Assembly: GCF_001898175.1 (NCBI RefSeq)
Contig: NZ_MKTH01000013.1
Coordinates: 231,795 to 295,794, forward strand
Length of the DNA: 64,000 bases
Reading direction: 5' to 3'
Source: Cellulomonas sp. 73-92
GTDB taxonomy: Bacteria; Actinomycetota; Actinomycetes; Actinomycetales; Cellulomonadaceae
A program made the translations under genes and the position numbers. Shown in pieces: positions 13,600-64,000 of this stretch. Under the pieces are notes generated by a model, which saw only the letters and a list, made by a program, of their open reading frames with translations, had not been told where the DNA came from and searched no databases. Numbering within the stretch: the first letter of the stretch is position 1; each line of letters opens with the position of its first letter.

Positions 13600-13656
13600 G
13601 TGCTCCACCGTACACACGAGCGCCGAATCCGGTCCGTGGGTCCCGGTCACGGTTAC

Positions 13657-13681
13657 CTGACACGGTGTGGAAGCATGTCAG
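13657..13681 (+). promoter_or_regulatory. Candidate TetR operator (CTGACA-N13-TGTCAG)
   Basis: An inverted repeat, CTGACA and TGTCAG with 13 bp between, ends 1 bp before the ATG of the TetR-family gene. Its size and place fit an autoregulatory site that also covers the leader of the divergent operon. Confidence 0.5.
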
Positions 13682-13682
13682 C

Positions 13683-14285
13683 ATGCCAAAGATCATCGGC
13701 GGATCGCTGCGCGAGCATCGCGAGCAGACGCGCCGCCGGCTCTTCGACGCCCTCTCGGCACTCATGGCGGACCACGGGTTCGACACGATCACCCTCGCGG
13801 ACATCGCCACCACCGCCGGGGTCGGGCGCACCGCCGTGTACAACCACTTCGAGGACAAGGAGGCGCTCCTCGTCGCGTTCATCGCCGACGAGACCGACCG
13901 CTACGCGGCGCTGCTGCAGCGGCGCCTCGACGAGATCGACGACCCGGTCGAGAAGCTGCGGCACTACGTGCGGGCGCAGGTGCGGCTCGGGCACGACCAG
14001 CAGTTCCCCGGCGCCGACCTGCGGACCATGGTGTCCCGCCAGACCGCGGCCCGGTTGCGCGAGCACGTCGTCGCCTTCGAGTCCGTGCTGCGCAGCGTGC
14101 TCAGCCGCGGCATCGAGGCCGGGCTGTTCCCCGACCAGGACCTCGACACGACCGTCCCGCTGGTCAACGCGTGCCTGTCCGCGCACGGCCCGGCCGGCGA
14201 CTCCGCGGCCCGCGAGCGCATCGTCCGGCAGACCGAGCAGTTCGTGCTCCGCGCGGTCGGCGCCGTCGCCGCCGAGTCGGCCTGA
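13683..14285 (+). CDS. TetR/AcrR family transcriptional regulator
   Basis: The 200-residue protein has the TetR N-terminal helix-turn-helix (TRRRLFDALSALMADHGFDT, then LADIATTAGVGRTAVYNHFE) at about residues 14-60 and an all-helical ligand-binding domain. It should repress its own gene and possibly the divergent hypothetical/DinB operon through the CTGACA...TGTCAG dyad just upstream. The ligand is unknown. The ATG at 13683 was chosen since the track start at 13509 lies inside the divergent gene. The protein is of usual family length. Confidence 0.88.
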   Translation: MPKIIGGSLREHREQTRRRLFDALSALMADHGFDTITLADIATTAGVGRTAVYNHFEDKEALLVAFIADETDRYAALLQRRLDEIDDPVEKLRHYVRAQVRLGHDQQFPGADLRTMVSRQTAARLREHVVAFESVLRSVLSRGIEAGLFPDQDLDTTVPLVNACLSAHGPAGDSAARERIVRQTEQFVLRAVGAVAAESA

Positions 14286-14670
14286 GCCCGTGGCTCGTCC
14301 CCACCGCCCCGGGCACGACGACGCGTCCGGGCGCCCTGGCCGGCCGGCACGGCCGCCGCGGGACGGCCGCCTCGACGGTTCGACGCCACCTCGTCGGTCC
14401 GCACCGACGAATCGGCGGGGAGCCGACGAGCCGGGCGATGGAGGCGCGGGCGGCCGACGACGAGCCGGCGCCCCGAGCGAGCAGGAGAAGGGCGGCCGAC
14501 GAGCGGACGGGCGAGCCGACCGGCCCCGCGAGCGAGACGCCAGCGGCCGACGAGCCGGCGGTGCCACGGGCCCCGGTGCCGGCCAGGGCGGGGCGGCGGG
14601 CAGGGGCGGTGCCGAGCGCCGACCGAGCCAGGCCGCCGGGCGGCCTGCCGGGCGCACCGGCACGGCCGGC
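14286..14670. other. 385-bp gene-free, repeat-rich GC region
   Basis: No ORF here has coding character that I trust. The sequence repeats the block GGCCGACGAGC (and close variants) about five times between 14400 and 14560, with GAGCCGGCG segments around it. It could be an untranslated leader of the methyltransferase gene, a decayed N-terminal extension, or a repeat array. Confidence 0.45.
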
Positions 14671-17315: not shown

Positions 17316-19643
17316 ATGGCCACCACCTCGACTCCGCTGCCTCGCGTCCGCGCGTCCGAGCTCGTCGGGCGCGGGTGGCTGAACACCGGCGGGGCGTCGG
17401 TGAGCCTCGCCGACCTGCGGGGCAAGGTCGTCGTGCTCGACTTCTGGACGTTCTGCTGCATCAACTGCCTGCACGTGCTCGACGAGCTACGGGAGCTCGA
17501 GGCGCGGTTCGCGGACGTGCTCGTCGTCGTGGGCGTGCACTCGCCGAAGTTCGTCCACGAGGCGGACCCCGACGCGCTCGCGGCGGCCGTGGAGCGCTAC
17601 GAGGTGCACCACCCCGTGCTCGACGACCCCACGCTCCTCACCTGGCAGGCGTATGCGGCGCGGGCCTGGCCGACGCTCGTCGTCATCGACCCGGAGGGCT
17701 ACGTCGTCGCGCACCTGGCCGGGGAGGGTCACGGCCCGGCGCTGGCCGCGCTCGTCGAGGTGCAGGTCGACGAGCACGATGCGAAGGGCACGCTGCGCCG
17801 GGGCGACGGACCCTACGTGGCGCCGGAGCCGACGCCCAGGACGCTCCGCTTCCCCGCGAAGGCGGTGGCACTGCCGAACGGCCGCCTCCTCGTCGCCGAC
17901 GCCGGGCACCACTCGCTCGCCGAGCTCGAGCCGGACGGGCAGACGCTCGTCCGGCGCATCGGCTCCGGCGAGCGCGGCTGGGTCGACGGGGGGCCCGACG
18001 AGGCCCGGTTCGCCGAGCCGAACGGCCTCTGCCTCGTCCCGTCGGAGCTGTCGCCCTGGGTGGACTACGACGTCGTGGTCGCGGACACGGCCAACCACCT
18101 GCTGCGCGGCGTCCGGCTCGCGGACGGCGCGGTGGTCACGCTGGCCGGCACGGGCGAGCAGTACGTCGTCGGCGGTCCCGACAACGTGATCCGGCTCGAG
18201 GACGACCACCGGGCCGGCAACGGGCTCGACGATGGCGATGTGGCCGGCGATCGGCCCGACGAGGCCGGCGTCGAGCCGGGGCCTTCGCCCGTCGTCGACC
18301 TCGACCCTGACGCGCTGGCATCCAAGGCCGCGTTCTCCTCCGCGCTCCGCGTCTCCTCGACGCCGCACGTCCCCGCGGCCGTGCTGCCCGCACCGCGGCG
18401 GGCGCGGTTGTCGTCGCCGTGGGACGTCGTGTGGTTCGAGCCGTGGGCGGCGTTCGTCGTCGCGATGGCGGGAAACCACACGCTCTGGGCGTTCGACCCC
18501 AAGGAGGGGTCGATCCAGCGCGTCGCCGGGACCATGAACGAGGGCCTCGTCGACGGGCCGGCCGGCGAGGCGTGGTTCGCGCAGCCGTCCGGCCTGGCGG
18601 TGGACGACGAGGCCCGCTTGTGGGTCGCGGACTCAGAGACCTCCGCGTTGCGCCTGGTCACGGGGTCGCTGGGAGCGGCGCAGGTCGACACGGTGATCGG
18701 CGCGGGGCTGTTCGACTTCGGCCACCGCGACGGCGCGGCCGACGAGGCCCGGCTGCAGCACCCGCTCGGCGTGGCCATCGACCACGACGGCTCCGTGCTC
18801 GTCGCCGACACCTACAACGGCGCCGTCCGCCGCTGGACCCCGGAACGGGGAACATCCGGCTCACCCAGCGGTCCAGATGTTCCCCGGTCTGAGCGGGTCG
18901 GCTCGCCCGAGGCGACCCTGCCCATCGCGGCGCGGGTGGACTTCCAGGCACCCGGCGACTGGAAGTCCGCCCAGGCCGCTCGAGGCGGCGAAACCACCAC
19001 GGTGGCGGCCGACGCGGCCCTGGGCACCGGAGACCGGGTGGAACTCCAGGCGTCCGACGACTGCAAGTCCACCCAACCCGGTGCCGACGGCCGCCCGACG
19101 ACCGACGTTGGCGCTGCGACGACGGCCGGCGGCACCGTCTCCACGGTGGCGGAGGGGCTCGCGGAGCCGTCGGGCCTCGTCGTGACGGCGGACGGGGTGC
19201 TCGTCGTCGAGTCGGCGGCGCACCGGATCACCCGGCTGGCCTCGTCGGGCGCCATCGCGGTGGACCACGGCGCGCACCGGACCCAGCGGCCGGTCACGGA
19301 GCTGGCACCGGGGGACCTCGAGCTCGTCGTGCCCTTCACGCCGGCTCCGGGCCACAAGGTCGACGACCGCTACGGCCCCTCGACACAGCTGTCGATCTCG
19401 TCGTCCCCGCCGGAGCTGCTGCTCGCCGGCGCCGGCGACGACACCCCGCTGACCAGGACGGTGCGCCTCAACCCCGACGTCGCGGAGGGGGTGCTGCACG
19501 TCTCGGCACGGGCCGCCAGCTGCGACGCGGACCCCGCCGTCGAGTACCCGGCCTGCCACCTCGCGCAGCAGGACTGGGGCGTGCCCATCCGGCTCGTCTC
19601 CGGGGCCCCGTCGACGCTGACGCTCCCGCTGCTGGGCTCCTGA
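17316..19643 (+). CDS. Thioredoxin-fold/NHL-repeat protein
   Basis: The 775-residue protein starts with a thioredoxin-like domain (about 30-160) with FWTFCCINCLHVLDEL, a CxxC-type active site CCINC typical of TlpA/NHLRC2-like proteins. Residues from about 190 form NHL beta-propeller blades (LLVADAGHHSLAELE, VVADTANHLLRGVR, LWVADSETSALRLV, VLVADTYNGAVRRW). The layout matches NHLRC2-like proteins; a redox or scaffold role in the cytosol is inferred, as no signal peptide is seen. Residues about 510-605 are a low-complexity insert encoded by palindromic DNA. The ATG is 7 nt after TAACCT (leaderless). Confidence 0.85.
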   Translation: MATTSTPLPRVRASELVGRGWLNTGGASVSLADLRGKVVVLDFWTFCCINCLHVLDELRELEARFADVLVVVGVHSPKFVHEADPDALAAAVERYEVHHPVLDDPTLLTWQAYAARAWPTLVVIDPEGYVVAHLAGEGHGPALAALVEVQVDEHDAKGTLRRGDGPYVAPEPTPRTLRFPAKAVALPNGRLLVADAGHHSLAELEPDGQTLVRRIGSGERGWVDGGPDEARFAEPNGLCLVPSELSPWVDYDVVVADTANHLLRGVRLADGAVVTLAGTGEQYVVGGPDNVIRLEDDHRAGNGLDDGDVAGDRPDEAGVEPGPSPVVDLDPDALASKAAFSSALRVSSTPHVPAAVLPAPRRARLSSPWDVVWFEPWAAFVVAMAGNHTLWAFDPKEGSIQRVAGTMNEGLVDGPAGEAWFAQPSGLAVDDEARLWVADSETSALRLVTGSLGAAQVDTVIGAGLFDFGHRDGAADEARLQHPLGVAIDHDGSVLVADTYNGAVRRWTPERGTSGSPSGPDVPRSERVGSPEATLPIAARVDFQAPGDWKSAQAARGGETTTVAADAALGTGDRVELQASDDCKSTQPGADGRPTTDVGAATTAGGTVSTVAEGLAEPSGLVVTADGVLVVESAAHRITRLASSGAIAVDHGAHRTQRPVTELAPGDLELVVPFTPAPGHKVDDRYGPSTQLSISSSPPELLLAGAGDDTPLTRTVRLNPDVAEGVLHVSARAASCDADPAVEYPACHLAQQDWGVPIRLVSGAPSTLTLPLLGS
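18846..18886. repeat. Palindrome inside the NHL gene (first)
   Basis: CGGGGAACATC and GATGTTCCCCG are perfect 11-bp inverted arms around a 19-nt loop. The element stays in frame and encodes part of a non-conserved linker of the NHL protein. Confidence 0.7.
18938..18968. repeat. Palindrome inside the NHL gene (second)
   Basis: GGACTTCCAG and CTGGAAGTCC are perfect 10-bp arms around the loop GCACCCGGCGA. The whole unit is repeated with variation about 100 bp further on, so it looks like a REP-type element. Confidence 0.75.
19038..19072. repeat. Palindrome inside the NHL gene (third, variant of the second)
   Basis: GTGGAACTCCAG and CTGCAAGTCCAC pair with two mismatches around the loop GCGTCCGACGA. 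Stem and loop both resemble the second element, which supports a mobile or duplicated repeat family. Confidence 0.7.
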
Positions 19644-19655
19644 CCCCCCCGGGAT

Positions 19656-19712
19656 CTTCATTTTCCTGAAGAAGTGGGCGCGATTCGCGACCGGTACTTC
19701 AGGAAAATGAAG
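19656..19712. repeat. Perfect 16-bp palindrome after the NHL gene
   Basis: CTTCATTTTCCTGAAG is followed after 25 nt by its exact reverse complement CTTCAGGAAAATGAAG, 12 bp after the NHL stop codon. The arms are AT-rich in a GC-rich genome and each arm also folds on itself (CTTCA/TGAAG). The loop holds GCGCGATTCGCG. It could end transcription, but its base composition suggests a mobile palindrome. Confidence 0.85.
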
Positions 19713-19720
19713 GTGAGGGT

Positions 19721-19802
19721 GGTCAGGCGGTCACGCACGTGGGGCGGTCGGGCGGTCACGCACGTGGGGCGGTCAGGCGGTCACGCACGTGGGTGGTCAG
19801 GC
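19721..19802. repeat. 25-bp tandem repeat, about 3.3 copies
   Basis: The unit GGTCAGGCGGTCACGCACGTGGGGC, quoted as GGTCAGGCGG + TCACGCACGTGGGGC, is repeated head to tail three times with one or two changes plus a partial copy. It lies between the 16-bp palindrome and the 3' end of the GGDEF gene. There are no spacers, so it is not CRISPR. Confidence 0.85.
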
Positions 19803-19820
19803 CGACATGGGGGTGGGGGC

Positions 19821-21230
19821 TCAGGCGGCGCCGAGGACGGCCACCGCCACCAGCGCCTGCAGCGCCGTGGTGACCGCGTCGCCGGTGGCCGCGGTCGACG
19901 ACGCGCCGACGCCCACCGACCAGGTCCCGTACGCGCCCTCGACGAGCACCGCGTCGCTGCCCAGGTCGGCAGGGCTGCCGCCGCGCGCGACGACCGCGGG
20001 CTCGCCCCCGTCCAGCCGCCCGAGCACGGACCACTCCCCGCCGCCGAGCACGTCGGCGGCGCCTGCTGCCACCGCGCACAGGCGCGCCACGACACCCGCC
20101 GACGCGCGGCCCAGCGCAGCCGTCCCGTAGACGAGCATCCGCTCGGCCGTCACCGCCGGATCGGCCTGCGGCGGCAGGGACAGCTGGCGCAGCCTCGCCC
20201 GCGCCCGCTTCGCCCGGTACTGCGCGGCGTCCGCCCGCCGGAACAGCGTCCGCGCCGGCACGGCGCCCGTGACGGCGGTCGACGCCAGCCCGTAGGAGAT
20301 CGCCGCCCCGTGCGGCAGCGGGAACTCCGCGACGATCCGGCTGACGACCTCCTGCACGTCCGCGCGGTGGTGCCCCATCGTCACGACGCAGAACTCGTCC
20401 CCGCCGATGCGGCCGGCGGTCGAGCCTGGCAGCTCCTCGGTGATGCGGCGCAGCACGTCGCCCACCGAGCGCAGCAGGTCGTCGCCGACGTCGTGGCCCA
20501 GCTCGTCGTTCACGCGCTTGAGGCCGTCGACGTCGCACATGACGATGCACGTCTCCTGGCCGCTGGCCAGCGCGTGGTCCGCGGCGGAGTCGGCGATGCG
20601 GCGGTTGCCGAGGCCGGTCAGCGGGTCGTCGGCGACGAGGTGGCGCACCTGCCCCTCGAGGTCCACGCGCGCGATGGCGCCCGCGACCAGTCCGGCGAGC
20701 ACCTCCGCCGCCGCGACGTCCCGCTCGCCGAACGGGCGCCCCTCGGCGCGCCGCGTCGCGGTGACCTGCCCCCAGACGGCGCCGTTGACCACCACGGGGA
20801 CGCCGAGCGCCGAGGTCCCGCCCACGTCGCGGAGCGTGCCCACCTCCACCGCGTCGGACAGCGGGTCGGTCACGTCGGCCCGCCAGGAGGCGCGGTCGCT
20901 GATGAGCGCGCGGAGCGCCGGCCGCTGCTCGGCGCGCAGCGAGCCCTGCGTGAACAGCACCTCGCGCACGTCGCGCGAAGGCGGCGCGGCCGCGATCGTG
21001 CGGCAGGTGTCCTGGGCGATCCGGCACAGCGCGGCGCTCGAGGCCCCGAGGATCTCCAGCGCGGACTCGGCGGCGATCACCGCGACGTCGTCGACCTCGC
21101 GCGCCATCTCCAGCCGGTGGCCGGCCGCGGCAAGCTCCACGACCCCGGCGACGGGCGCGACGAGCGGGTCCACCACGCGTCCCTCCGTGTCTCGGGCGGA
21201 CATCCCGGACATCATCCCCGATGACGGCAC
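19821..21230 (-). CDS. GAF-GGDEF protein, probable diguanylate cyclase
   Basis: The 469-residue soluble protein has a GAF-like sensor at about 40-190, then a GGDEF domain at about 205-350 with DDPLTGLGNRR, VMCDVDGLKRVND and the intact active-site loop AGRIGGDEFCVV. It should make cyclic di-GMP from two GTP. The product-inhibition I-site (RxxD five residues before GGDEF) is absent. The last about 120 residues are not recognised. The start is uncertain among GTG 21230 and in-frame ATGs at 21215, 21212 and 21203; no clear ribosome binding site decides. A c-di-GMP-I riboswitch occurs at 50.1 kb. Confidence 0.87.
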   Translation of the reverse strand: MPSSGMMSGMSARDTEGRVVDPLVAPVAGVVELAAAGHRLEMAREVDDVAVIAAESALEILGASSAALCRIAQDTCRTIAAAPPSRDVREVLFTQGSLRAEQRPALRALISDRASWRADVTDPLSDAVEVGTLRDVGGTSALGVPVVVNGAVWGQVTATRRAEGRPFGERDVAAAEVLAGLVAGAIARVDLEGQVRHLVADDPLTGLGNRRIADSAADHALASGQETCIVMCDVDGLKRVNDELGHDVGDDLLRSVGDVLRRITEELPGSTAGRIGGDEFCVVTMGHHRADVQEVVSRIVAEFPLPHGAAISYGLASTAVTGAVPARTLFRRADAAQYRAKRARARLRQLSLPPQADPAVTAERMLVYGTAALGRASAGVVARLCAVAAGAADVLGGGEWSVLGRLDGGEPAVVARGGSPADLGSDAVLVEGAYGTWSVGVGASSTAATGDAVTTALQALVAVAVLGAA

Positions 21231-50374: not shown

Positions 50375-51325
50375 TCATAGCGGGGCGTCGAGCCAGTGAT
50401 CCTCCGACGGCAGCACCTGTTCCAGCTCGGCGAAGAGATCAGGCGGCAACGAGGCCTGCGCGGCGGCCACGGTGGGCGCGATCCGCTCGGGCCGGGACAT
50501 CCCGACGATCGTCGACGCGAACGTCTCGTCCCGGACGGAGAACTGCAGCGCCGCGGTCGGCAGGTCCGTGCCGTAGCGGGCGCAGACGGCGCGCATCGCG
50601 GACACCGCGGCGAGCACGGCCGGGGGCGCCGGGCGGTAGCCGTACGTCGTCGGGCTGCCCGCGTCGTCCTGGTGGGCGAGGATGCCGCCGCCGTAGACCG
50701 CGGCGTTGAGCACGCCCATCCCCTGCCGACGCGCCTCGGCGACGAGCCGGCCGGCGGACCGGTCGACGAGCGTCCAGCGGTTGTGGACCAGCAGCACGTC
50801 GAAGACCTCGAGGGCGAGGTAGCGCGCCATGACCCGCACGTCGCCACCGGCCAGGCCGATCGCGCCGACGACGCCGGACTCGCGCAGCGCGACGAGCGCG
50901 TCCACCGCGCCGCCCGGCCCGGCGATGTCGTCGAACTCGTGGAACTCCGGGTCGTGCAGGTGCACCAGCGGCAGGCGGTCGAGACGGAGCCGCTCCATCG
51001 ACTCCTCGACACTGCGGCGCACGCGGTCGCCCGAGTAGTCGCCGTCCTTCGGGTCCGTCTTCGTCTCGACGACGACGCCCGCCGGCACGCCCCCGACCCG
51101 GCGCAGCGCTTCGCCGATGCGCCGCTCGCTCTCGCCGTCCGAGTAGCCGTTCGACGTGTCGATGAACCGGATGGGGCTGTCGAGCGCGGCGAGCACGGTC
51201 CGGATGCCGCGCTCGGCCGGCGTCTCCTGGCCGAACAGCCGCGGCATGCTCCCGAGCGGCCCGCCACCCAGGCAGAGCGCGGAGACCTCGAGGCCGGTCG
51301 CACCCAGCGGCCGCATCCAGGACAT
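50375..51325 (-). CDS. Aldo/keto reductase
   Basis: The 316-residue TIM-barrel protein has the AKR tetrad: Asp in RFIDTSNGYSDGESE (with Tyr as the acid), Lys in VVETKTDPKDG and His in PLVHLHDPEFHEFDD. The C-terminal NADPH site is QFSVRDETFASTIVGMSRPE. It belongs to the D-threo-aldose/pyridoxal reductase-like branch, so it may oxidise an aldose such as L-fucose or D-arabinose, or reduce an aldehyde (inference). GAGGAGG lies 5 nt before the ATG at 51325. It is 38 bp downstream of the penicillin-binding protein gene and may share its transcript. Confidence 0.88.
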   Translation of the reverse strand: MSWMRPLGATGLEVSALCLGGGPLGSMPRLFGQETPAERGIRTVLAALDSPIRFIDTSNGYSDGESERRIGEALRRVGGVPAGVVVETKTDPKDGDYSGDRVRRSVEESMERLRLDRLPLVHLHDPEFHEFDDIAGPGGAVDALVALRESGVVGAIGLAGGDVRVMARYLALEVFDVLLVHNRWTLVDRSAGRLVAEARRQGMGVLNAAVYGGGILAHQDDAGSPTTYGYRPAPPAVLAAVSAMRAVCARYGTDLPTAALQFSVRDETFASTIVGMSRPERIAPTVAAAQASLPPDLFAELEQVLPSEDHWLDAPL

Positions 51326-54151: not shown

Positions 54152-56803
54152 TCAGGCGCGCGCGATCGTCAGGCGCTGCCCGGCGGCGACGACGACACCG
54201 GGCGGGCCGACGACCACGCGCGAACCGCGGTCGGCCTGCTCGACCCGCGCGTCGACCGCCTCGCCCGCGAGCCGGACCGATGCGCCGCGCGGCACGCCCG
54301 GCAGCACCAGCTCCCGCAGCGGGAGCGTGCCGTGGGCGACCTCGAGATCGGCGCCGTCGACGCGCAGCACGCACGTGCCCCACGCCTGTCCGGTGACGAA
54401 CGGCAGCCGCACCGTGCCGGCGTCGTCGCGCGCCGTCAGCGCCGCGATCGGTGAGAACGACAGCGACCCGGCGGAGGCGTCGTGCTGCTGACCCGTGATG
54501 GCGCCCAGCACCGTCCAGCCCGCCATCGAGCGGGCGTAGTGGTCGCCGCACTCGACCTCGTTGTACGGGTTGCGCCGGGAGCCGTCATGACGCGCCCGCA
54601 GGCCGCGCAGGATCGCCATCCCCTCTTCGACGAGCCCCTCGTAGAGGCAGTGCGCCGCGACCTCGTACTCCGAGCCCGTCCACACCTCGTCCGCGTACCG
54701 GGTGGGGACGGCCGGCCGACCACCAGTCGGCCACGAGCACATGACCAGGCCGGTGTCATCGCCGTCGGCATAGACGCGGTCCTGGTGGACGACGTCGCGG
54801 AACGACGTCCGGAGGTTGTGCCGGACCACCCCGCGCAAGGCCGCGACGACGTGCTCCCGCGGCAGCAGGTACCCGAGGCCGAGGACGTGGGCCCACCACT
54901 GGCCGATCAGCTGGTCGGAGAGGCAGCCCGGTCCCCACTGGAACTCGTCGGGCTCGCCGGGCGCGAGGACCTGGACGAAGTAGTCGCCGTTCCACAGCCG
55001 CCGGTCGTACTCGGCCGACCCCGCCTCGAAGCGCGCCCGGCACCAGCGCGCGCGGGGCTCGTCCTCCTGCCGCAGCGCCAGCTCCTCCGCGGCGCGCAGC
55101 GCCGCCAGCCACAGCGTCCCCATGAACGGGTTGGTGCCCCGCAGGTCGATGTCGTGCGTGCTCGGCTGGATCCCGGACAGCACACCCGTGGCGTCGGGGT
55201 CCCAGGTGGCCGCTACGTGGTCCAGCAGCAGCCGGACCTTCGGCCACCGGCGCGCCAGCCACTCGTCGCCCGCGCCGGCGCGGACCTCGCGATACGTCTT
55301 GAGGACCGTCCCGAGCATCCCGTCCAGCGCCGGCTCGTCGGGGCCGCCGATCGGCACGTCCCACAGCTGCGGCAGGTACGTCGGTGCGATCACGCGGTGC
55401 GGCACGTAGCCCGACGGCGCCTGTGCCACGTCGAACTCCGTGTCGCGCATCGACAGCTCGAGCGACGGGAAGAGCGCCGCGAGCGCGTGCTCGTAGTTCC
55501 ACACATGTGTGCAGTTCAGGGGGCACGAACCGCCGACCGCCCCGGCGTGGTGCATCGTCGACGCGCCGTTGACACCCTCGAACCCGAAGACCTCCCCGGT
55601 GCCGGCGCGGAACACCGTGGGGGTGCGCAGCGGGACCGCCTGGCCGGCGAGCCGCTCGGCGACGTCCGGCGGCAGCGACGAGTCCCGCAGCACCCGCCGC
55701 CAGTCGTCGGAGGCCGCGTGCAGCTCCTCCCACCGCGCGGTGACGTCGGCGACGACGTCGGTGGCGCGCGGGTAGCGCCGTGCGTACCAGTTGCCGAGCC
55801 AGAACGTCGACAGCCCGCGCTCGGGGTGCCGCGGCCCGAAGTCGTCGTAGTTGACGAACCGGTGGGGGAAGGACCACGCGACCACGGCGCGGAGCGCGAG
55901 GGAGTCACCCGGCGCCAGGTGCCAGGGCACCGCGAGGCCGCCCGCCCACGTGCTCCCCGCGGCGCTCGGTCCCCGCCAGCCGCTGCCCGTCCGCACGTCC
56001 CTTCCGCCGGGAAAGGCGCCGGCTTCCCCGTGCTCCGGGAGGCCCGGCACGACGAGCCCGCGCAGGAACTCGGCGAAGTCCTGCGGCTGCGACCAGCTGA
56101 GGTCGGCGACCGAGCCGTGCCCCTCCAGCGCCAGCACCATCTGGCCGGCTCGCGGGTCGACGTCCGGGATCGCGGGGTTCTCGCAGACGAGCGACGTCCA
56201 GCCGCCGGCACGTTCGAGCCGGTTCGTGTTGCCGCCGTAGCCCGGGTGGCCGGCGCCGCGCGGGTTGACGACGCCGTCGGCGCCGACGTCGTTCTGCAGC
56301 GCGCCGGCGAGCCAGCCGTGCAGGTGGTCCGCGGACCGGTTGACGAGACGCACCGTGAAGAGGGCGGCAGGGATCCCGCTGGCCTCCTCGTCGAGCGGCA
56401 CCAGGGGGTTGAAAGCCTCGATCGTCACGCCCAGCGGCAGGTCAGGGTCGACGACCTCGACCTCGGCGAACGGGTAGAATCCGCGGAACCGCGTCGCGGC
56501 CACCGGCGGGAAGGCCGAGAACAGGCCCTCGTGCCACGACGGGACCGCCGCGTCGTTCACCATCGGCACCGGGTCGCTCGCCTCGGACCGGGCCTGCAGC
56601 ACGCGCAGCCCGTCGATCGGCGGCTGGATCCCGCTGTACCGCAGCGCGAGGAACGTGTTCGGCAGCTCCCCGAGGTGGTTGCCGATGTTGTGGAGCTGCC
56701 ACTGGCGCAGGGCGCCGTCCGCGCCGATCGCCAGGTTGCCGGTGCCGATCCCGCCCAGTGGCATGGCCGCCGCCCGGGCGGAGTCGCTGCCCAGGGTGGT
56801 CAT
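54152..56803 (-). CDS. GH116 family glycoside hydrolase, cytoplasmic
   Basis: The 883-residue protein is a GH116 enzyme: N-terminal PLGGIGTGNLAIGADGALRQ, nucleophile Glu in CTHVWNYEHALAALFP, and acid/base Asp region SGIQPSTHDIDLRGTNPFMG. There is no signal peptide. GH116 includes beta-glucosidases and an exo-beta-D-arabinofuranosidase described from Microbacterium. The gene sits in an operon with GH172 and GH183 genes, which favours the D-arabinan role (inference). Its ATG overlaps the stop of the GH172 gene by 4 bp, so the two enzymes are made together; it is the last gene of the operon. Confidence 0.88.
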   Translation of the reverse strand: MTTLGSDSARAAAMPLGGIGTGNLAIGADGALRQWQLHNIGNHLGELPNTFLALRYSGIQPPIDGLRVLQARSEASDPVPMVNDAAVPSWHEGLFSAFPPVAATRFRGFYPFAEVEVVDPDLPLGVTIEAFNPLVPLDEEASGIPAALFTVRLVNRSADHLHGWLAGALQNDVGADGVVNPRGAGHPGYGGNTNRLERAGGWTSLVCENPAIPDVDPRAGQMVLALEGHGSVADLSWSQPQDFAEFLRGLVVPGLPEHGEAGAFPGGRDVRTGSGWRGPSAAGSTWAGGLAVPWHLAPGDSLALRAVVAWSFPHRFVNYDDFGPRHPERGLSTFWLGNWYARRYPRATDVVADVTARWEELHAASDDWRRVLRDSSLPPDVAERLAGQAVPLRTPTVFRAGTGEVFGFEGVNGASTMHHAGAVGGSCPLNCTHVWNYEHALAALFPSLELSMRDTEFDVAQAPSGYVPHRVIAPTYLPQLWDVPIGGPDEPALDGMLGTVLKTYREVRAGAGDEWLARRWPKVRLLLDHVAATWDPDATGVLSGIQPSTHDIDLRGTNPFMGTLWLAALRAAEELALRQEDEPRARWCRARFEAGSAEYDRRLWNGDYFVQVLAPGEPDEFQWGPGCLSDQLIGQWWAHVLGLGYLLPREHVVAALRGVVRHNLRTSFRDVVHQDRVYADGDDTGLVMCSWPTGGRPAVPTRYADEVWTGSEYEVAAHCLYEGLVEEGMAILRGLRARHDGSRRNPYNEVECGDHYARSMAGWTVLGAITGQQHDASAGSLSFSPIAALTARDDAGTVRLPFVTGQAWGTCVLRVDGADLEVAHGTLPLRELVLPGVPRGASVRLAGEAVDARVEQADRGSRVVVGPPGVVVAAGQRLTIARA

Positions 56804-57915
56804 CCGCGGGGCGCCCGCGGCGGCGTGCTCCCGAGGTCCGGCACGGCCTCGGCGCCTAGGTGGACCTCCATGTCGTCTGCCGTCGGGGCGGCGGGCCGGT
56901 GGGCGACCGGGCGGTCGAGGTAGAAGATCGCGGTCGAGGCGATGTCGTCGTGCAGCGGCAGGTAGCGCCAGCCCGACCGCCAGCCCAGCGCCTGGACCGT
57001 CACGCGCAGCCGTTCCCGGAAGCGGATCGGGTCCGGGACGTGCCACCGGTACATGCCGAACCGCTGCTGGGAGGCGTACAGGCCGTCGGGCCGGATCACC
57101 TGCGGCAGGCCGAGGTAGGGCGTGCTGTACGGCGTGTACCCCTGGCCGGGGACGTCGAAGTTCCAGGCGCCGCCGAAGTAGTCCTCCGTGCCCGTGCCGC
57201 AGATCGTCGGGTACTCCTCGTCGGAGTCGAGGTAGAACTTCATCTCGCCCTCGCCCCACCAGCCGCTGGAGTTGACGCCCCAGGCCAGATAGGTGCCGAC
57301 GTACTGGCCCGATCCCTCGACGCCCTCGACGAGCGTGTGCGGCACCTTGTCGGGCAGCGGGTTCGAGCGCCGCCACTGGGCGTGGAAGTAGCCGTCCGCC
57401 GAGTGGTCGCCGCCCACCTCGTAGGTGACCTGGTAGTACACGCGCACCTCGACGTCCGAGGTGTTCTCCAGCGTCAGCCGTGCGCCGGAGCGGAACGGCA
57501 TCGGCCAGTAGGAGTTGAAGCCGCCGTTCGGGTTGGCCGCGATCACCTGCGAGCTCACCTGGGCGAAGACGCCCCAGCCGTGGCAGAAGAAGTCGCCGTA
57601 CGGGACCTCGACCGCGGGTTCGGTCGCACCGTCCCAGTAGGCGCGCAGCACGAGCGTGCGCCAGTTGTCCTTGTGCGTCGTGATCCAGATGTGCGTGATC
57701 CGGCCGGAGCCCTCGATGCTCGCCAGCTCGAACGTCGCGCCGGCGGCGACGTCCACGCTCGGCGACACCTTCCAGCCCGGGCCGAGGTCGCGGGCGTTCC
57801 ACGCGCCCGTGCCGGTCGTCGCGCGCCCGCCACCGCCGACCGACCCGTCGAAGTTCTCCGGGCAGATCGAGCGTGTCTGACGATCGCTGAGCGCGCTGAT
57901 GCCGCCGATGTCCAT
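56800..57915 (-). CDS. DUF2961 / GH172 family glycoside hydrolase, cytoplasmic
   Basis: The 371-residue protein is a DUF2961 protein: ENFDGSVGGGGRATTGTGAW, HIWITTHKDNWRTLVLRAYW, the jelly-roll core, and the catalytic-Glu region TICGTGTEDYFGGAWNF. GH172 holds difructose dianhydride synthases, exo-alpha-D-arabinofuranosidases and exo-alpha-D-fructofuranosidases. No signal peptide, so it works in the cytosol on imported sugar. The ATG at 57915 follows AGGTGG and is preferred to GTG 57924. Its place between transporter and GH116 genes supports an arabinan-trimming job. Confidence 0.9.
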   Translation of the reverse strand: MDIGGISALSDRQTRSICPENFDGSVGGGGRATTGTGAWNARDLGPGWKVSPSVDVAAGATFELASIEGSGRITHIWITTHKDNWRTLVLRAYWDGATEPAVEVPYGDFFCHGWGVFAQVSSQVIAANPNGGFNSYWPMPFRSGARLTLENTSDVEVRVYYQVTYEVGGDHSADGYFHAQWRRSNPLPDKVPHTLVEGVEGSGQYVGTYLAWGVNSSGWWGEGEMKFYLDSDEEYPTICGTGTEDYFGGAWNFDVPGQGYTPYSTPYLGLPQVIRPDGLYASQQRFGMYRWHVPDPIRFRERLRVTVQALGWRSGWRYLPLHDDIASTAIFYLDRPVAHRPAAPTADDMEVHLGAEAVPDLGSTPPRAPRG

Positions 57916-57936
57916 CCCCACCACCTTGCCTCGTGC

Positions 57937-58767
57937 CTACTTGATGCCGGAGAGACGGACGCCGGCGACGATGTACCGCTGGAAGACGAGCAGCAGGACG
58001 ATCGTCGGCAGAGCCGCCAGTGTCGAGGCCGCCATGAGCTGTCCGTACTGCGGCCCGCGGTCGTCGACGAAGTTCGCGAGCACGGGCATGATCTGCTGCA
58101 GCGTCGGGTTGCTGATCGTCAGGATCGGCCACACATACGCATTCCAGTACGCCATGTACGACGTGATCCCGACGACGACGAACACCGCCGTCGAGTTCGG
58201 GACGAAGATGCGCAGGAAGATCGTCCAGCGCGAGCAGCCGTCGATCCGCGCCGCATCCTCGACCGCGATCGGCATGGCCAGGAAGAACTGGCGCATGAAG
58301 AACATCTGCCCTGCGGCGGCCACGCCCGGGACGATGAGTACCGCGAGCGTGTTGAGCATGTGGAGCTTCGACACGACCACGAACGACGTGATGAGGATCG
58401 ACATCCCCGGCACGAACATCGGCATGATGCAGAACACCCAGAAATACCGCTTGAGCCCGAAGTCCAGCCGCGCGAAGACGTAGGCCGCCATCGAGTTCAC
58501 GACGAGGCTCAGCCCGGTGAAGATCAGGGCGCCGAGCATCGTTAGCCCCACTGCCGTCATGTACGGCGAGTCGTGGAACATCGCGGTGTAGTTCTGCCAC
58601 TGCCAAACCTCGGGCAGCAGCGAGAACGGCGACTTCAGGACGTCGCTGTCGCGCTTGAAGCCGGACAGCGCCATCCACGCGAGCGGCAGCACGAGGCTGA
58701 ACGCGATGAGGACGAGGAGCACCCACTTGACGACCAGGGTGCGTCGGGACCTGGTCATCTCAGGCAT
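57937..58767 (-). CDS. Sugar ABC transporter permease (MalG-type)
   Basis: The 276-residue membrane protein has six helices and the EAA loop EDAARIDGCSRWTIFLRIFV, which docks the ATPase. It is of the MalG/CUT1 carbohydrate family, so it should import an oligosaccharide together with the other permease and the binding lipoprotein. It begins within the last bases of the previous permease gene (8-bp overlap). No ATPase gene is present; a shared MsiK-type ATPase elsewhere is the usual actinobacterial solution. Confidence 0.93.
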   Translation of the reverse strand: MPEMTRSRRTLVVKWVLLVLIAFSLVLPLAWMALSGFKRDSDVLKSPFSLLPEVWQWQNYTAMFHDSPYMTAVGLTMLGALIFTGLSLVVNSMAAYVFARLDFGLKRYFWVFCIMPMFVPGMSILITSFVVVSKLHMLNTLAVLIVPGVAAAGQMFFMRQFFLAMPIAVEDAARIDGCSRWTIFLRIFVPNSTAVFVVVGITSYMAYWNAYVWPILTISNPTLQQIMPVLANFVDDRGPQYGQLMAASTLAALPTIVLLLVFQRYIVAGVRLSGIK

Positions 58768-59740
58768 CCACCGCCTTCTCGGACCTGATGAGCCGGAACA
58801 CGAGCGCCGAGACCGTGCCGAGGACGATGAACAGGAGGAGCGACGCCGTGATGGAGAACGTCATCGCGTAGGGCGTCGCGGCGCGGAACTGGTTGAAGAT
58901 GTAGAGGTTCGGCGTGGTCGACGCATTGACGGGGCCGCCGTTGGCGATGAGCAGGGGCAGCAGGAACTCCTGGAACGCGGCGACGATGCCGGTGACGAAC
59001 AGGTACAGCAGGACGTTCCTCAGCAGGGGGAGCGTGATGTACCACGTCCGCTTCAGGAAGCCGGCACCGTCGAGCTGGGCGGACTCAATGTAGCTGTCGG
59101 GGATGTCGAGCAGGCCCGCCAGCATGATGAGCGTGGTGATGCCGAGGCCCAGCCAGATGCCGGGCACGGCGACGGCGGGGATCACCATGGTGGGGCTGCC
59201 GAGGAAGTTCTTCGGCGCCACGTTGATGAGGCTCAGCACCCAGTTCGCCAGACCCTGGTCGGCGTAGATGATCTTGAAGAGCACCGACGCGATGACGGCT
59301 GACACCACCGTGGGCAGGTAGACGGTCGTCTTCATGAACGAGGCCATCCTGCTGCCGAGCGTCTTGATGAAGCTGGCGATGAGCAGGGCGATGAGCATGC
59401 CGCCCGGGACCACGATCACCGCGTAGTACGCGCCCACCTTGAGCGACTGGTAGAAGCCCGGGTCCGTCAGCACGTACTTGTAGAAGTCGAGCCCGACGAA
59501 CACGGGTGGCTTGTAGAAGTTGCCCTGGTACATGCTCTGGCGGAAGGCGAAGATCAGCGGCCAGATCACGAAGATGGCGAGCAGCACCATCATCGGGGCG
59601 AGCATGAGGTACGCCGTCCGCCTCTCCTCGCGGCTCCCGGCGCGCTTCTCTCGCGCCGGTGGTGCCGTCTCACCGAGCTTCGCGGTAACGCTGCCCTGCC
59701 GCTCTCGATGCGTCGCTGCCTCTGTGGCGGGCGCCTTCAT
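58760..59740 (-). CDS. Sugar ABC transporter permease (MalF-type)
   Basis: The 326-residue protein has a charged cytosolic N-terminus, then six membrane helices and the EAA loop ESAQLDGAGFLKRTWYITLP. It is the MalF-like partner of the next gene. The ATG at 59740 was chosen because GAAGGGGAG lies 4 nt before it; ATG 59755 has no such site and the track start at 59995 lies inside the binding-protein gene. It is separated from the binding-protein gene by a strong hairpin. Confidence 0.93.
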   Translation of the reverse strand: MKAPATEAATHRERQGSVTAKLGETAPPAREKRAGSREERRTAYLMLAPMMVLLAIFVIWPLIFAFRQSMYQGNFYKPPVFVGLDFYKYVLTDPGFYQSLKVGAYYAVIVVPGGMLIALLIASFIKTLGSRMASFMKTTVYLPTVVSAVIASVLFKIIYADQGLANWVLSLINVAPKNFLGSPTMVIPAVAVPGIWLGLGITTLIMLAGLLDIPDSYIESAQLDGAGFLKRTWYITLPLLRNVLLYLFVTGIVAAFQEFLLPLLIANGGPVNASTTPNLYIFNQFRAATPYAMTFSITASLLLFIVLGTVSALVFRLIRSEKAVDA

Positions 59741-59791
59741 GTCACTCCCCTTCATGGGTTCGGGGGTCACCGTGGCCCTCGTCCGGCAGGC

Positions 59792-59833
59792 CCGGTGTCC
59801 CAGGGGCGGCTCGCGCAGTCCCCGGGACACCGG
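59792..59833 (-). promoter_or_regulatory. Intercistronic hairpin between binding-protein and permease genes
   Basis: CCGGTGTCCC and GGGACACCGG form a perfect 10-bp stem 15 bp after the binding-protein stop. Such hairpins usually stabilise the upstream message and lower read-through, so that much more binding protein than permease is made. Confidence 0.6.
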
Positions 59834-59847
59834 ACCGTGCTCAGGCG

Positions 59848-61227
59848 TCAGGACTGCGGCGCCGTTCCCTTGAGCTGCTGCTTCTGGATGGTGCTGTTGA
59901 TCGAGTCGTTCGCGGTCTTCAACGCGGCGTCCACCGACGCCGTGCCCTTCATGCCCGCCTCGATCGCAGTGCCCATCGCCAGCGAGATGTCCCACGGGTA
60001 CTGGGGCTCGGCGATGCCGTGAGCGACGATGTCCTCCGAGATCGTCTTCATGTTGGCGTCCTGCTTCGTCGACGGATCGTTGGTGGCGATCGCCTGGTCC
60101 ACCGAGGTGCGGGTCGTGTACTTGGAGTAGCCGGCCTGCTTGAAGAAGTCGGCCATGATGTTCGGGTCGCCGGCGGCCAGGTAGGAGATGAAGGCCGCGG
60201 CCTCCTTCGGGTGCTTCGACTTCGCGTCGAGGGTCAACGTCCAGCCGCCGAGCGTCGCGGTCGTCTCACCGGTGCCGCCGTCCTTCGTCGGGAAGGGCAC
60301 GGCGACCGTCTTGGGGAGCAGGTCGGGCTTGGTCTGCTTGATCGCGCCCAGCGCCCACGAGCCGTCCACCATCATCGCGACCTCGCCGTTCATGTACGGC
60401 GTGGCATCCGCATACCCCGTCTTGGGGTTCTGCGGCATCAGCTTGTTCTGGTAGAGCGTCTTGTAGAGGCCGACGAGGTCCGCGAAGCACGACTCGGTCG
60501 CCCGCCCCGCGCTCCAGTCGTCGGTGATCGGGAAGTGGCCGCACGAGTTGTACTGCAACCCCCAGCTGGACCATCCAAGGTCGGCGGCGACGGAGGCGAT
60601 GGTGATGCCCTTGACGTTGCCCGAGGTCAGCTTCGTCGCCCAGTCGATGAGGTCGTTCCACGTCTTCGGCGGGCTCGCAGGGTCGAGCCCGGCAGCCTTC
60701 GCCAGGTCCGTGTTGATGTACAGCACGGTCGACGGTTCGACGAGCATCGGGTAGCCCCAGTGCTTGCCGTTCTGAGTCACGAACGGTGCGACGTTCGACT
60801 TGATGTCGGCGAACGCCGACGCGGGCAGGTAGTCGTCGAGCGCCGAGAACTGGCCCTGGGCCACGCCCGGCTTGATGTTGCCGTAGTTGGTGGTCACCAC
60901 GTCGGGCTGCGTGCCGGCGGCCTGCGCGGCCTGCAGCTTCTGCGTCCACGTGTCGCCCGGGACCACCTGGTAGACGACGTTCACGCAGTTCTGCGATGCG
61001 TTGAACTGAGCGACGTACTTCTTGTACCAGGCCTGCTGGTAGTCCTCGAACTTCTGCTGCCAGAAGGTGACCGTGGTCGCGCTCGAGCAGCCCGTCTCCA
61101 CAGCACCAGGCGTGCCGGACGCGGCGGGCGTGCCCGTCCCGCCGGCTGAACCGCTGCCGCAGGCAGCGAGCGACACTGCGCTGGCGGCGGCCAGCGTGAG
61201 GGCGATCAGCCCCTTGCCTCGCCTCAT
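59848..61227 (-). CDS. Sugar-binding lipoprotein of an ABC transporter
   Basis: The 459-residue protein starts with a lipoprotein signal (SLAAC, Cys23) and is a CUT1-type solute-binding protein: VTFWQQKFEDYQQAWYKKYV, QPDVVTTNYGNIKPGVAQGQ, GYPMLVEPSTVLYINTDLAK, YMNGEVAMMVDGSWALGAIK. It should catch an oligosaccharide at the cell surface and hand it to the two permeases. Its position next to a GH183 enzyme suggests D-arabino-oligosaccharides (inference). GAGGAGGAAG lies 4 nt before the ATG. Confidence 0.93.
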   Translation of the reverse strand: MRRGKGLIALTLAAASAVSLAACGSGSAGGTGTPAASGTPGAVETGCSSATTVTFWQQKFEDYQQAWYKKYVAQFNASQNCVNVVYQVVPGDTWTQKLQAAQAAGTQPDVVTTNYGNIKPGVAQGQFSALDDYLPASAFADIKSNVAPFVTQNGKHWGYPMLVEPSTVLYINTDLAKAAGLDPASPPKTWNDLIDWATKLTSGNVKGITIASVAADLGWSSWGLQYNSCGHFPITDDWSAGRATESCFADLVGLYKTLYQNKLMPQNPKTGYADATPYMNGEVAMMVDGSWALGAIKQTKPDLLPKTVAVPFPTKDGGTGETTATLGGWTLTLDAKSKHPKEAAAFISYLAAGDPNIMADFFKQAGYSKYTTRTSVDQAIATNDPSTKQDANMKTISEDIVAHGIAEPQYPWDISLAMGTAIEAGMKGTASVDAALKTANDSINSTIQKQQLKGTAPQS

Positions 61228-61278
61228 TCTCTTCCTCCTCTTGTCTGGGCGCCTCGCTGCGCCAACAGTCCGCCGTCC

Positions 61279-62439
61279 CTACTTCTGCAGGTCGGCGCGG
61301 TACCAGAACACTTCGTACGGATCCCAGATGGACAGCGTGAAATAGATGGTCTTGCCGCCATTTGCCGTGTAGCGGTCGAGCATGTACGGCGCGTACGGGC
61401 CGGCCACCTGGTCGGCACCGACGAGCGTGACCGGGACGCCCCACGGGCCCCACGGCGAGAGCCCTTCGCGGATGACGATTCCCGTGCCTTCTTTGAGGTA
61501 CGTCATGATCCAGCGGCCGAGATAGGCGTTCCACACCACCGACAATTCGCCGACGGTGTCGTCGAGAACCGTTCTCGCCGCCGCTGGGTCGCCACCCCAG
61601 GTCGGGTGCCCGGCGCCGTCCACGCCGGTGAGGTAGCGCCAGGCGGACGCGTCGTCCACCTTCGCCGCGGCCACCTTCGCCAGCGACACCCCGCCGAACC
61701 GCCCGTGCGTGATGCCCCAGACGTAGAGCGTGTCGACGCCGTCCTCGGTGACGTGGTAGGTCGCCACCTGGACGAACCCGGAGGTGCCGCTCCAGCGCGG
61801 GGAGTCGAGCACCGTCCAGTCCTGGCCCTGGTCGGTGGACTTCGCCAGGCCCGCGTCGTTGACCTCCCACTCGCCGGGCGCACCCCAGTGCCGCACCGAC
61901 ATCCAGTGGAGGTACATCGCCCCGCCGGCCTCGAAGCCGTACGTGGGGATCACGGTCATCTCGACGTCGTCCACCTTCTTGGACGGCAGCAGCTCCTTGG
62001 CCAGCCCGAGGTCGTCGGTGATCATCCCGCCGAGCGTGATGCCGTCCGACGGGTTCGTGTCCGTGGTCCACGCCATGGCGTTCGAGCGCCACCCGGTGCC
62101 CCCGCCGCCGACGGCGCCCTCCGGGCGGCTCGCGAAGTTGTCGCCGAACGTGAAGTACACCTTGCCGTTCGCCTCGAACATCGAGCCGAGGTCGGCGTAG
62201 CCCATGCCCCACCGCACCGTGCTGCCCGGCGCTCCTGCCCCGGTGATCTGGCCCACCTGCGTGACGTCCCGGACGCCCTTGAGGACGAACGGCGTCGTGC
62301 TGGCCAGGGCGAACGCGGTCGGTGCGGCGGAGACAGGCGTCGGCGCCGCCGCACCACCCCCCGCGCACGCCGCGAGCACGAGCAGGCTCGTGCCCGCCGC
62401 CGCGACGGCGGTGCTTCGGATGACCTTCCGACGAGCCAC
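61279..62439 (-). CDS. DUF4185 / GH183 family lipoprotein, probable endo-D-arabinofuranase
   Basis: The 386-residue protein has a lipoprotein signal (VLAAC, Cys25) and a DUF4185 five-bladed propeller: VRWGMGYADLGSMFEANGKV, YFTFGDNFASRPEG, SNAMAWTTDTNPSDG, GAMYLHWMSVRHWG, AYLGRWIMTYLKEG. DUF4185 is now GH183, shown to contain endo-D-arabinofuranases that cut mycobacterial arabinogalactan and lipoarabinomannan. This is the only secreted hydrolase of the operon, so it would do the first cut outside. GAGGAGG lies just before the GTG start. Confidence 0.9.
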   Translation of the reverse strand: MARRKVIRSTAVAAAGTSLLVLAACAGGGAAAPTPVSAAPTAFALASTTPFVLKGVRDVTQVGQITGAGAPGSTVRWGMGYADLGSMFEANGKVYFTFGDNFASRPEGAVGGGGTGWRSNAMAWTTDTNPSDGITLGGMITDDLGLAKELLPSKKVDDVEMTVIPTYGFEAGGAMYLHWMSVRHWGAPGEWEVNDAGLAKSTDQGQDWTVLDSPRWSGTSGFVQVATYHVTEDGVDTLYVWGITHGRFGGVSLAKVAAAKVDDASAWRYLTGVDGAGHPTWGGDPAAARTVLDDTVGELSVVWNAYLGRWIMTYLKEGTGIVIREGLSPWGPWGVPVTLVGADQVAGPYAPYMLDRYTANGGKTIYFTLSIWDPYEVFWYRADLQK

Positions 62440-62475
62440 GATCCTCCTCGATCGACGATCAGCGTGTGGGGCGGG

Positions 62476-63411
62476 TCACTGCCCGCTGGCGACGGTGGAC
62501 GGCGCCTCGGTGAACGCGCGTACCTCGTCGGCCGTCGGGGCCGACGCCGCGGAGCCCGTCCGGGTGACGGAGATGGCCGCCGCCACGTTCGCCGCCTCGG
62601 CCGCCCGGGCGAGGCGCAGGCCCTGGGCCAGCCCGGCGGCGAGGTACCCGCAGAACACGTCGCCGGCGCCGACGGTGTCCACCGCCCGCACCGGACGGGC
62701 CGGCACGTGGCTCACCTCCCCGCCCGAAGCCACCACGAGCGCGCCGCGCTCCCCGAGCGTCACCACGACGTCCAGTCCCCATCGGTCGCGCAGGAGCGCG
62801 GCCGCCTCGCTCGGACCGAGGTCGGCCCGGCCGGTGAGCGCCGCCAGCTCGCCCTCGTTGGGGACGAGGACGTCGACGTGCTCGAGCAGCTCGGCCGGCA
62901 ACGGGCAGACCGGTGCGGGGTTGAGGATGACGGTGACGCCACGCTCGTGGGCGATCCGGGCGGCCGCCAGCGCGGCCTCGACGGCGAGCTCGAGCTGCAG
63001 GACGAGCACGGTGGCGGCGGTGATCACCGGGGCCGCCTCGATGATCTGCACGGCGTCGACCACCCGGTTCGCCCGGGGCACGACGACGATCGAGTTCTGC
63101 CCGCTCGGCTCCACGAGGGGCAGGCCCACGCCGGTTCCCGCGCCGGGGCGCACCTGGACGGCCGTCGCGTCGATGCCCTCGGCGAGGAGCATCGAGCGGA
63201 ACTGCGCGCCCATGTCGTCGTCGCCGACGCAACCGACCATCGCGGTCGACGCCCCCGCCCGTGCCGACGCGACCGCCTGGTTGAACCCCTTGCCGCCGGG
63301 GGCGAAGGAGAAGTCGGTCCCGATCAACGTCTCGCCGGGGTTCGGACGCCGGGGCGCGTACGCGACCAGGTCCATCATGAACGAGCCGACCACGCACACC
63401 GAGGCGCTCAT
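62476..63411 (-). CDS. Ribokinase-like PfkB-family sugar kinase
   Basis: The 311-residue protein is of the ribokinase type: VVGSFMMDLVAYAPRRPNPG, sugar-binding GGKGFNQAVASARAGA, LNPAPVCPLP and the ATP/catalytic motif DTVGAGDVFCGYLAAG with the base Asp. Ribokinases phosphorylate pentoses at O5 and are known to accept D-arabinose. The context predicts D-arabinose 5-phosphate as product. The ATG overlaps the stop of the SIS gene by 4 bp, tying the two steps together. Confidence 0.9.
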   Translation of the reverse strand: MSASVCVVGSFMMDLVAYAPRRPNPGETLIGTDFSFAPGGKGFNQAVASARAGASTAMVGCVGDDDMGAQFRSMLLAEGIDATAVQVRPGAGTGVGLPLVEPSGQNSIVVVPRANRVVDAVQIIEAAPVITAATVLVLQLELAVEAALAAARIAHERGVTVILNPAPVCPLPAELLEHVDVLVPNEGELAALTGRADLGPSEAAALLRDRWGLDVVVTLGERGALVVASGGEVSHVPARPVRAVDTVGAGDVFCGYLAAGLAQGLRLARAAEAANVAAAISVTRTGSAASAPTADEVRAFTEAPSTVASGQ

Positions 63412-64000
63412 GCCAGGCTCCCGTCGCCGAGCAGCTGGCGTCCGAGCGAACCGCCCGGGTGGAAGGTGGCGAACTCGTCGGACCCGAAACCGCTCAGGGT
63501 CATGAGCCCGGCGGCCAGGGCGTCGCCCAGGGCCAGCGTGCTGGCAGTCGACGCGGTCGGCGCCAGCCCCAGCGGGTCCGCCTCCCGCTCCACGTGGATC
63601 GACAGGTGCACCTGCGCCAGCGTCGCCAGCGTCGACTCCGGCCGGCCGGTCATCGCGATGACCGGCACCCCGCGGGCCAGGACCATCCGTGCGAAGTGGC
63701 ACACCTCCGCGGTCTCGCCCGAGTAGGAGATGAGGATGGTGACGTCGTCCGGCGTGACCATGCCGGAGTCGCCGTGCAGCGCCTCAGCCGAGTGCACGAA
63801 GAACGCCGGTGTGCCGGTGCTCGCGAGCGTCGCGGCGATCTTCGACCCGATGTGGCCCGACTTGCCGAGGCCGGACACCACGACACGGCCGCGCGTACCG
63901 CTCAGCAGCCGCAGGGCCTCGGCCAACGCCGGCCGGACGGCCCGGCGGGTCGCGGCGATCGCCTCGGACTCGACCGCCATCGCCCGGTCGGCCGCGACCA
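63408..64000 (-). CDS. KpsF/GutQ-type SIS isomerase (arabinose-5-phosphate isomerase-like)
   Basis: The visible part (about 197 residues) is a SIS domain with the signatures of arabinose-5-phosphate isomerase: VVVSGLGKSGHIGSKIAATL, STGTPAFFVHSAEALHGDSG, ILISYSGETAEV, LAPTASTASTLALGDALA and the terminal FATFHPGGSLGRQLL. The catalytic Lys of GKSGH and the His residues are present. The tandem CBS domains of E. coli KdsD/GutQ are absent. The track starts it at ATG 63980, but the frame stays open to the window edge with family-like residues (AADRAMAVESEAI), so the true start may lie outside. It interconverts D-ribulose 5-phosphate and D-arabinose 5-phosphate. Confidence 0.88.
   Translation of the reverse strand, partial: VAADRAMAVESEAIAATRRAVRPALAEALRLLSGTRGRVVVSGLGKSGHIGSKIAATLASTGTPAFFVHSAEALHGDSGMVTPDDVTILISYSGETAEVCHFARMVLARGVPVIAMTGRPESTLATLAQVHLSIHVEREADPLGLAPTASTASTLALGDALAAGLMTLSGFGSDEFATFHPGGSLGRQLLGDGSLA

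Follow-up and report, generated by a model that had tools for sequence, protein, structure and literature searches.

A putative D-arabinan catabolic operon of Cellulomonas sp. 73-92 with a predicted phosphorylate-first route for D-arabinose

The window analysed here is a stretch of 64,000 nucleotides from contig NZ_MKTH01000013.1 of Cellulomonas sp. 73-92. Open reading frames and family profile matches placed eight genes at 54152-64000, all on the minus strand and spaced by -8 to 107 bp, in agreement with a sequence-only reading that had described eight co-directional genes with overlaps or short gaps. From the upstream end, they encode a KpsF/GutQ (KdsD-like) SIS-domain isomerase without CBS domains (63408..64000, running off the window to a start at about 64028; TIGR00393, 4e-64), a PfkB ribokinase-like kinase predicted to be a D-arabinose 5-kinase (62476..63411; PfkB, 3e-65), a GH183 (DUF4185) lipoprotein predicted to be an endo-D-arabinanase (61279..62439; DUF4185, 8e-79), the substrate-binding lipoprotein (SBP) of an ABC importer (59848..61227; SBP_bac_1, 5e-38), the importer permeases PermA (58760 to about 59740, the start codon being approximate; BPD_transp_1, 7e-13) and PermB (57937..58767; BPD_transp_1, 3e-13), a predicted GH172 exo-alpha-D-arabinofuranosidase of the ExoMA1 type (56800..57924; DUF2961, 9e-90), and a predicted GH116 exo-beta-D-arabinofuranosidase (54152..56803; catalytic domain 1e-39, N-terminal domain 2e-37). 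The three hydrolase families named in the sequence-only reading were thus all present. Two further species of the genus have the same gene order, with 73-90% protein identity.

The operon does not end at the window edge. A FucU-like mutarotase gene (locus L005, 12820-13227, corresponding to about 64025-64432 in window coordinates) lies upstream of the SIS gene and continues the transcription unit, which therefore comprises nine genes with the FucU-like gene as the first. Overlaps of 4 bp join the FucU-like and SIS genes, the SIS and PfkB genes, and the GH172 and GH116 genes; PermA and PermB overlap by 8 bp, and the remaining gaps measure 12-107 bp. The description of these genes as a complete operon with an ABC importer needs correction on two points: eight genes do not make it complete, and next to permeases and binding protein it lacks an ABC ATPase gene. 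Elsewhere on the same contig there is a match to a MalK-type ATPase. Upstream of the FucU-like gene, past the window edge, lie an operator of the LacI type, a conserved orphan gene in divergent orientation (L005 about 13621-14574, about 64826-65779 in window coordinates, plus strand) whose product has no Pfam match, and a LacI regulator gene. A scan for consensus promoters and terminators yielded nothing exceeding chance. On the other side, about 2.8 kb downstream of the GH116 gene and beyond a penicillin-binding-protein-like gene, an aldo-keto reductase is encoded (50375-51325, minus strand); it was considered as an oxidative route for D-arabinose, and its family match is weak.

The hydrolases were compared with characterised enzymes. 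The GH172 protein scored 708 bits against the exo-alpha-D-arabinofuranosidase 8ic8 and 129 bits against the fructofuranosidase alphaFFase1 (7v1v), and its Microbacterium relatives were 77-80% identical to it. The GH116 protein scored 401 bits against 8ic6 and 96 bits against beta-glucosidases; it falls in a sister clade of ExoMA2 and may belong to the ExoMA2 kind (subfamily 4), and it keeps the columns of the nucleophile (E) and the acid/base (D), with a nine-residue insertion after or beside the nucleophile. Grouping with fructan- or glucoside-active enzymes, the outcome that the sequence-only reading had set against itself, was not seen, and such a reading of GH172 and GH116 was ruled out by these scores. 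The GH183 protein could be aligned with EndoMA1 (8hhv; 1.5e-49) with the equivalents of D33, D51, E243 and R198 kept, at moderate overall similarity. Its best Microbacterium counterparts adjoin a binding-protein gene, and in position and similarity it resembles the uncharacterised MIAR_33320 type, named after a protein that is encoded beside a binding-protein gene and could not be characterised (Shimokawa et al. 2023, PMC10509167). Lipoboxes (LAAC in both cases) were found only in GH183 and SBP, whereas GH172 and GH116 have no signal peptide and are predicted to be cytoplasmic, so that GH183 is, as had been proposed, the only exported hydrolase. Two more GH172 genes of the same genome, C4:13283-14065 (L006) and C19:9357-10130 (L007), lie outside the ExoMA1-like clade. 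In several Microbacterium-type loci a gene with a sub-threshold DUF4185 match, possibly a divergent GH183, adjoins GH172 (for instance L063, 11120-12316).

Homology, catalytic residues, signal peptides and a LacI operator common with Microbacterium loci together give good support to the earlier proposal of D-arabinan catabolism by cutting outside, import and trimming inside. The GH183 surface lipoprotein would cut the D-arabinan of mycobacterial-type walls into oligosaccharides, which the binding-protein-dependent ABC importer would take up, probably powered by a shared ATPase encoded elsewhere; the cytoplasmic GH172 and GH116 enzymes would then remove alpha- and beta-linked D-arabinofuranose, respectively. 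The activities and substrates of these proteins and the specificity of the transporter are predictions.

Such an arrangement has precedents. A locus of Microbacterium arabinogalactanolyticum contains four GH183 genes, GH172, GH116, an ABC transporter, an isomerase and a kinase, and is induced by D-arabinose and by mycobacterial wall extract; for it, outside cutting, import and inside trimming were proposed (Shimokawa et al. 2023, PMC10509167). For Cellulomonas sp. 73-145 the same paper lists DUF4185, GH172 and GH116. The principal novelty claim of the sequence-only reading, that transport and intracellular metabolism had not been described together with these enzymes, therefore fails, since Shimokawa et al. 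had described a locus of the same kind. The operon shares with that locus the three hydrolase families, an SBP-type importer, a kinase and an isomerase, as well as the endo-acting enzyme outside and the exo-acting ones inside, and differs from it in having one GH183 gene instead of four and in forming a single operon (PMC10509167). PUL42 of Dysgonomonas gadei also encodes GH172 and DUF4185 enzymes, which act on mycobacterial D-arabinan; it differs in being a Bacteroidota polysaccharide utilization locus with a predicted fucose isomerase, which was its most abundant carbohydrate-active protein (Al-Jourani et al. 2023, PMC10115798). What the first reading missed, and what is of interest here, is that kinase and isomerase are assigned to families other than those of Microbacterium-type loci: a KpsF-type isomerase and a PfkB kinase instead of the FucI-like isomerase and FGGY kinase of the related Microbacterium loci compared here.

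The SIS protein exceeded the TIGR00393 cut-off (216.7 vs 203.7 bits) and was 52% identical to E. coli KdsD. Equivalents of K59, H88, E111, E152 and H193, which we take to be the KdsD active site, were kept in the SIS proteins of all 17 loci that contain one. It differs from E. coli KdsD and GutQ in its size of 206 residues without CBS domains and in its place in a catabolic operon rather than in LPS synthesis. These features led us to infer that it is an arabinose-5-phosphate isomerase. SIS enzymes of the KdsD kind act on phosphorylated sugars, and the kinase should therefore act first.

The kinase fell slightly under the cut-off of the ribokinase model TIGR02152 (295.8 vs 299.65 bits) and could be aligned with E. 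coli ribokinase (RbsK). Both are PfkB proteins and share most of the ribose contacts, namely D16, G42, K43, N46, E143 and D255; the operon kinase differs by N14M, A98G and I100P and by its linkage to a SIS gene, not to ribose genes. Methionine thus stands in place of the Asn14 contact of RbsK. Among the kinases of SIS loci (15 actinobacterial ones plus one from Bacillota), Met14 was present in 16/16 and Gly98 in 14/16, two kinases of the clade retaining Ala98, whereas a comparison set made up of RbsK and of ribokinase-like proteins without such linkage, most of them encoded in the same genomes, had Asn14 in 16/19 and Ala98 in 20/20. The difference at position 14 came to notice independently of published work; position 98 was inspected in the light of a study of E. 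coli ribokinase, in which the A98G change raised the kcat on D-arabinose 15-fold, since the alanine faces the 2'-hydroxyl of arabinose, the wild-type enzyme having a KM of 470 mM for this sugar (Zayats et al. 2022, PMC9604405). The 15 actinobacterial kinases formed a single clade (support 100/99), and the Bacillota kinase, from Lederbergia citri, fell outside it, yet it also carries Met14 and Gly98.

We then considered how the two kinds of metabolic module are distributed. GH172 is accompanied by a FucI-like isomerase and an FGGY kinase in the named Microbacterium, Agromyces, Sanguibacter and Cryobacterium loci, as well as in some of those from Streptomyces. The genus of the window, the order's families f13 and f20 and the Bacillota species Lederbergia citri have instead a KpsF-type isomerase, with a ribokinase-like kinase next to it or close by. 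Among 95 loci, 28 had FucI or FGGY, 17 had SIS and none (0/95) had both; it should be considered that the SIS loci beyond the genus were mostly found using SIS as the query, and that loci L160-L172 were chosen for containing it. The 17 SIS loci are the operon described here and 16 others, with a ribokinase-like kinase nearly always beside the SIS gene; in three of them, which are short contigs or stretches, no GH172 falls within the sequence covered, and in another three the only one seen is a more distant, second GH172. A FucI-like protein was absent from the operon locus and from its genome, and it was found in 0/16 SIS genomes against 7/7 comparators (P = 4e-6, a value that overstates independence, since the genomes are related). 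Close SIS homologues were rare: besides the genome described here, 13 of 396 genomes in the order encoded one, and a further 4 of 397 across the phylum. ExoMA1-like GH172 was encoded in 12/13 of the close-SIS genomes of the order and in 50/382 of those without the close SIS clade (P = 1e-9, with the same reservation), and in 7 of those 12 it lay at most 8 kb from the SIS gene.

Two of these loci deserve separate mention. In a Ruaniaceae genome (L108, KH17; 18129-20516), DhaK and DhaL genes follow SIS and a PfkB kinase gene lies 6.5 kb past it; the kinase of this locus is uncertain because DhaK/DhaL are also present. As a general partner kinase DhaK/DhaL were rejected, having been observed in Ruaniaceae alone, on a contig that also carries the PfkB kinase. 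The Lederbergia citri locus (L079, 3282-11065) holds FucU-like, PfkB, LacI and SIS genes and two GH172 genes, which suggests that the SIS module is not confined to Actinomycetota. A plasmid search with the SIS gene gave, among the matches listed, only Gram-negative KpsF/KdsD proteins.

Both kinds of locus also share a putative operator. In 13 FucI-type loci a AATCGATT-centred palindrome was counted 43 times, where shuffled sequences gave 0.65; the 13 SIS-type loci contained 12 copies, where shuffling gave 0.15. The motif had been picked after viewing the genus loci, so that the counts of the three genus loci are not independent. Because this motif and homologous LacI genes are found in both locus kinds, a common regulon is suggested, in which a LacI-family repressor acting on a GAAATCGATTTC-like operator probably controls them both. 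The orphan protein has homologues in a further 10 genomes of the order, each of which also encodes GH172, and homologues lie inside Microbacterium and Cryobacterium D-arabinan loci. A low-confidence structure model of the orphan (five sequences, pLDDT 59.7) gave no structural match at E < 0.001.

The same operon could in principle work in the opposite order, with an unrecognised aldose isomerase yielding D-ribulose, the PfkB kinase phosphorylating D-ribulose and the SIS enzyme making D-arabinose-5-phosphate for another purpose. We regard this as unlikely, though it is the alternative to be taken most seriously. Substrates do vary among PfkB enzymes, the text of PMC10509167 says only that isomerase and kinase act on D-arabinose, and Citrobacter rodentium did not need the KpsF-like gene of its D-ribulose locus in order to grow on D-ribulose (PMC12307932). 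On the other hand, none of the 16 SIS genomes has a FucI-like protein, the kinase bears a residue change known to favour D-arabinose, and the FucU-like, SIS and PfkB genes form, by their overlaps, a single translational unit.

Less probable still is an operon dedicated to a different furanoside, for example alpha-D-fructofuranosides or a polymer that contains ribofuranosides, with an ordinary ribokinase. The GH172 family does include alphaFFase1, an alpha-D-fructofuranosidase, and the kinase is barely under the TIGR02152 cut-off, but the GH172 protein matches the D-arabinofuranosidase far better (708 vs 129 bits), GH183 and this kind of GH116 are families of D-arabinan loci, positions 14 and 98 of the kinase are unlike those of ribokinases, and neither fructose nor ribose use offers an evident role for a KdsD-like enzyme. 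Mycobacterial GH183 genes may act on the organism's own wall (PMC10509167), and we give the lowest probability, a very slight one, to enzymes that here remodel the host's own envelope instead of degrading foreign D-arabinan. Against it stand the importer and the full catabolic module of the operon, the lack of signal peptides that places two of the hydrolases in the cytoplasm, and the occurrence of the operon-type GH172 in just 3/82 genomes of the genus. To our knowledge, moreover, Cellulomonas-like bacteria have no wall arabinogalactan.

We therefore return to D-arabinan catabolism through a phosphorylate-first module. Once D-arabinose has been released inside the cell, the FucU-like mutarotase would interconvert its ring forms, the ribokinase-like kinase would phosphorylate it at O5 to D-arabinose-5-phosphate, and the KdsD-like isomerase would convert this into D-ribulose-5-phosphate, which enters the pentose phosphate pathway. 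That the operon serves D-arabinan use, that this module replaces the isomerise-first FucI-like and FGGY module of Microbacterium-type loci, and that a LacI-family repressor controls it, is a reading that we consider likely on the evidence of genes and genomes. With somewhat less assurance, we think it probable that this is a second, non-homologous natural route for D-arabinose, in which a ribokinase-descended D-arabinose 5-kinase and a catabolic KdsD-type isomerase, accompanied in some loci by a FucU-like protein, take the place of the FucI-like/FGGY pair in D-arabinan loci, the kinase carrying the same A98G change as the engineered E. coli ribokinase. In the open-access literature, to which the search was confined, no description of a catabolic arabinose-5-phosphate route was found.

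An arabinose-5-phosphate isomerase of Clostridium tetani has reportedly been the subject of a paper. Gram-positive bacteria do not have the LPS pathway for which arabinose-5-phosphate isomerases are known, and the route proposed here, if true, would give these enzymes a catabolic role in such bacteria. It would also point to natural D-arabinose 5-kinases, which are missing from arabinoside synthesis, and to a second enzyme lineage for dissecting mycobacterial arabinogalactan and lipoarabinomannan.
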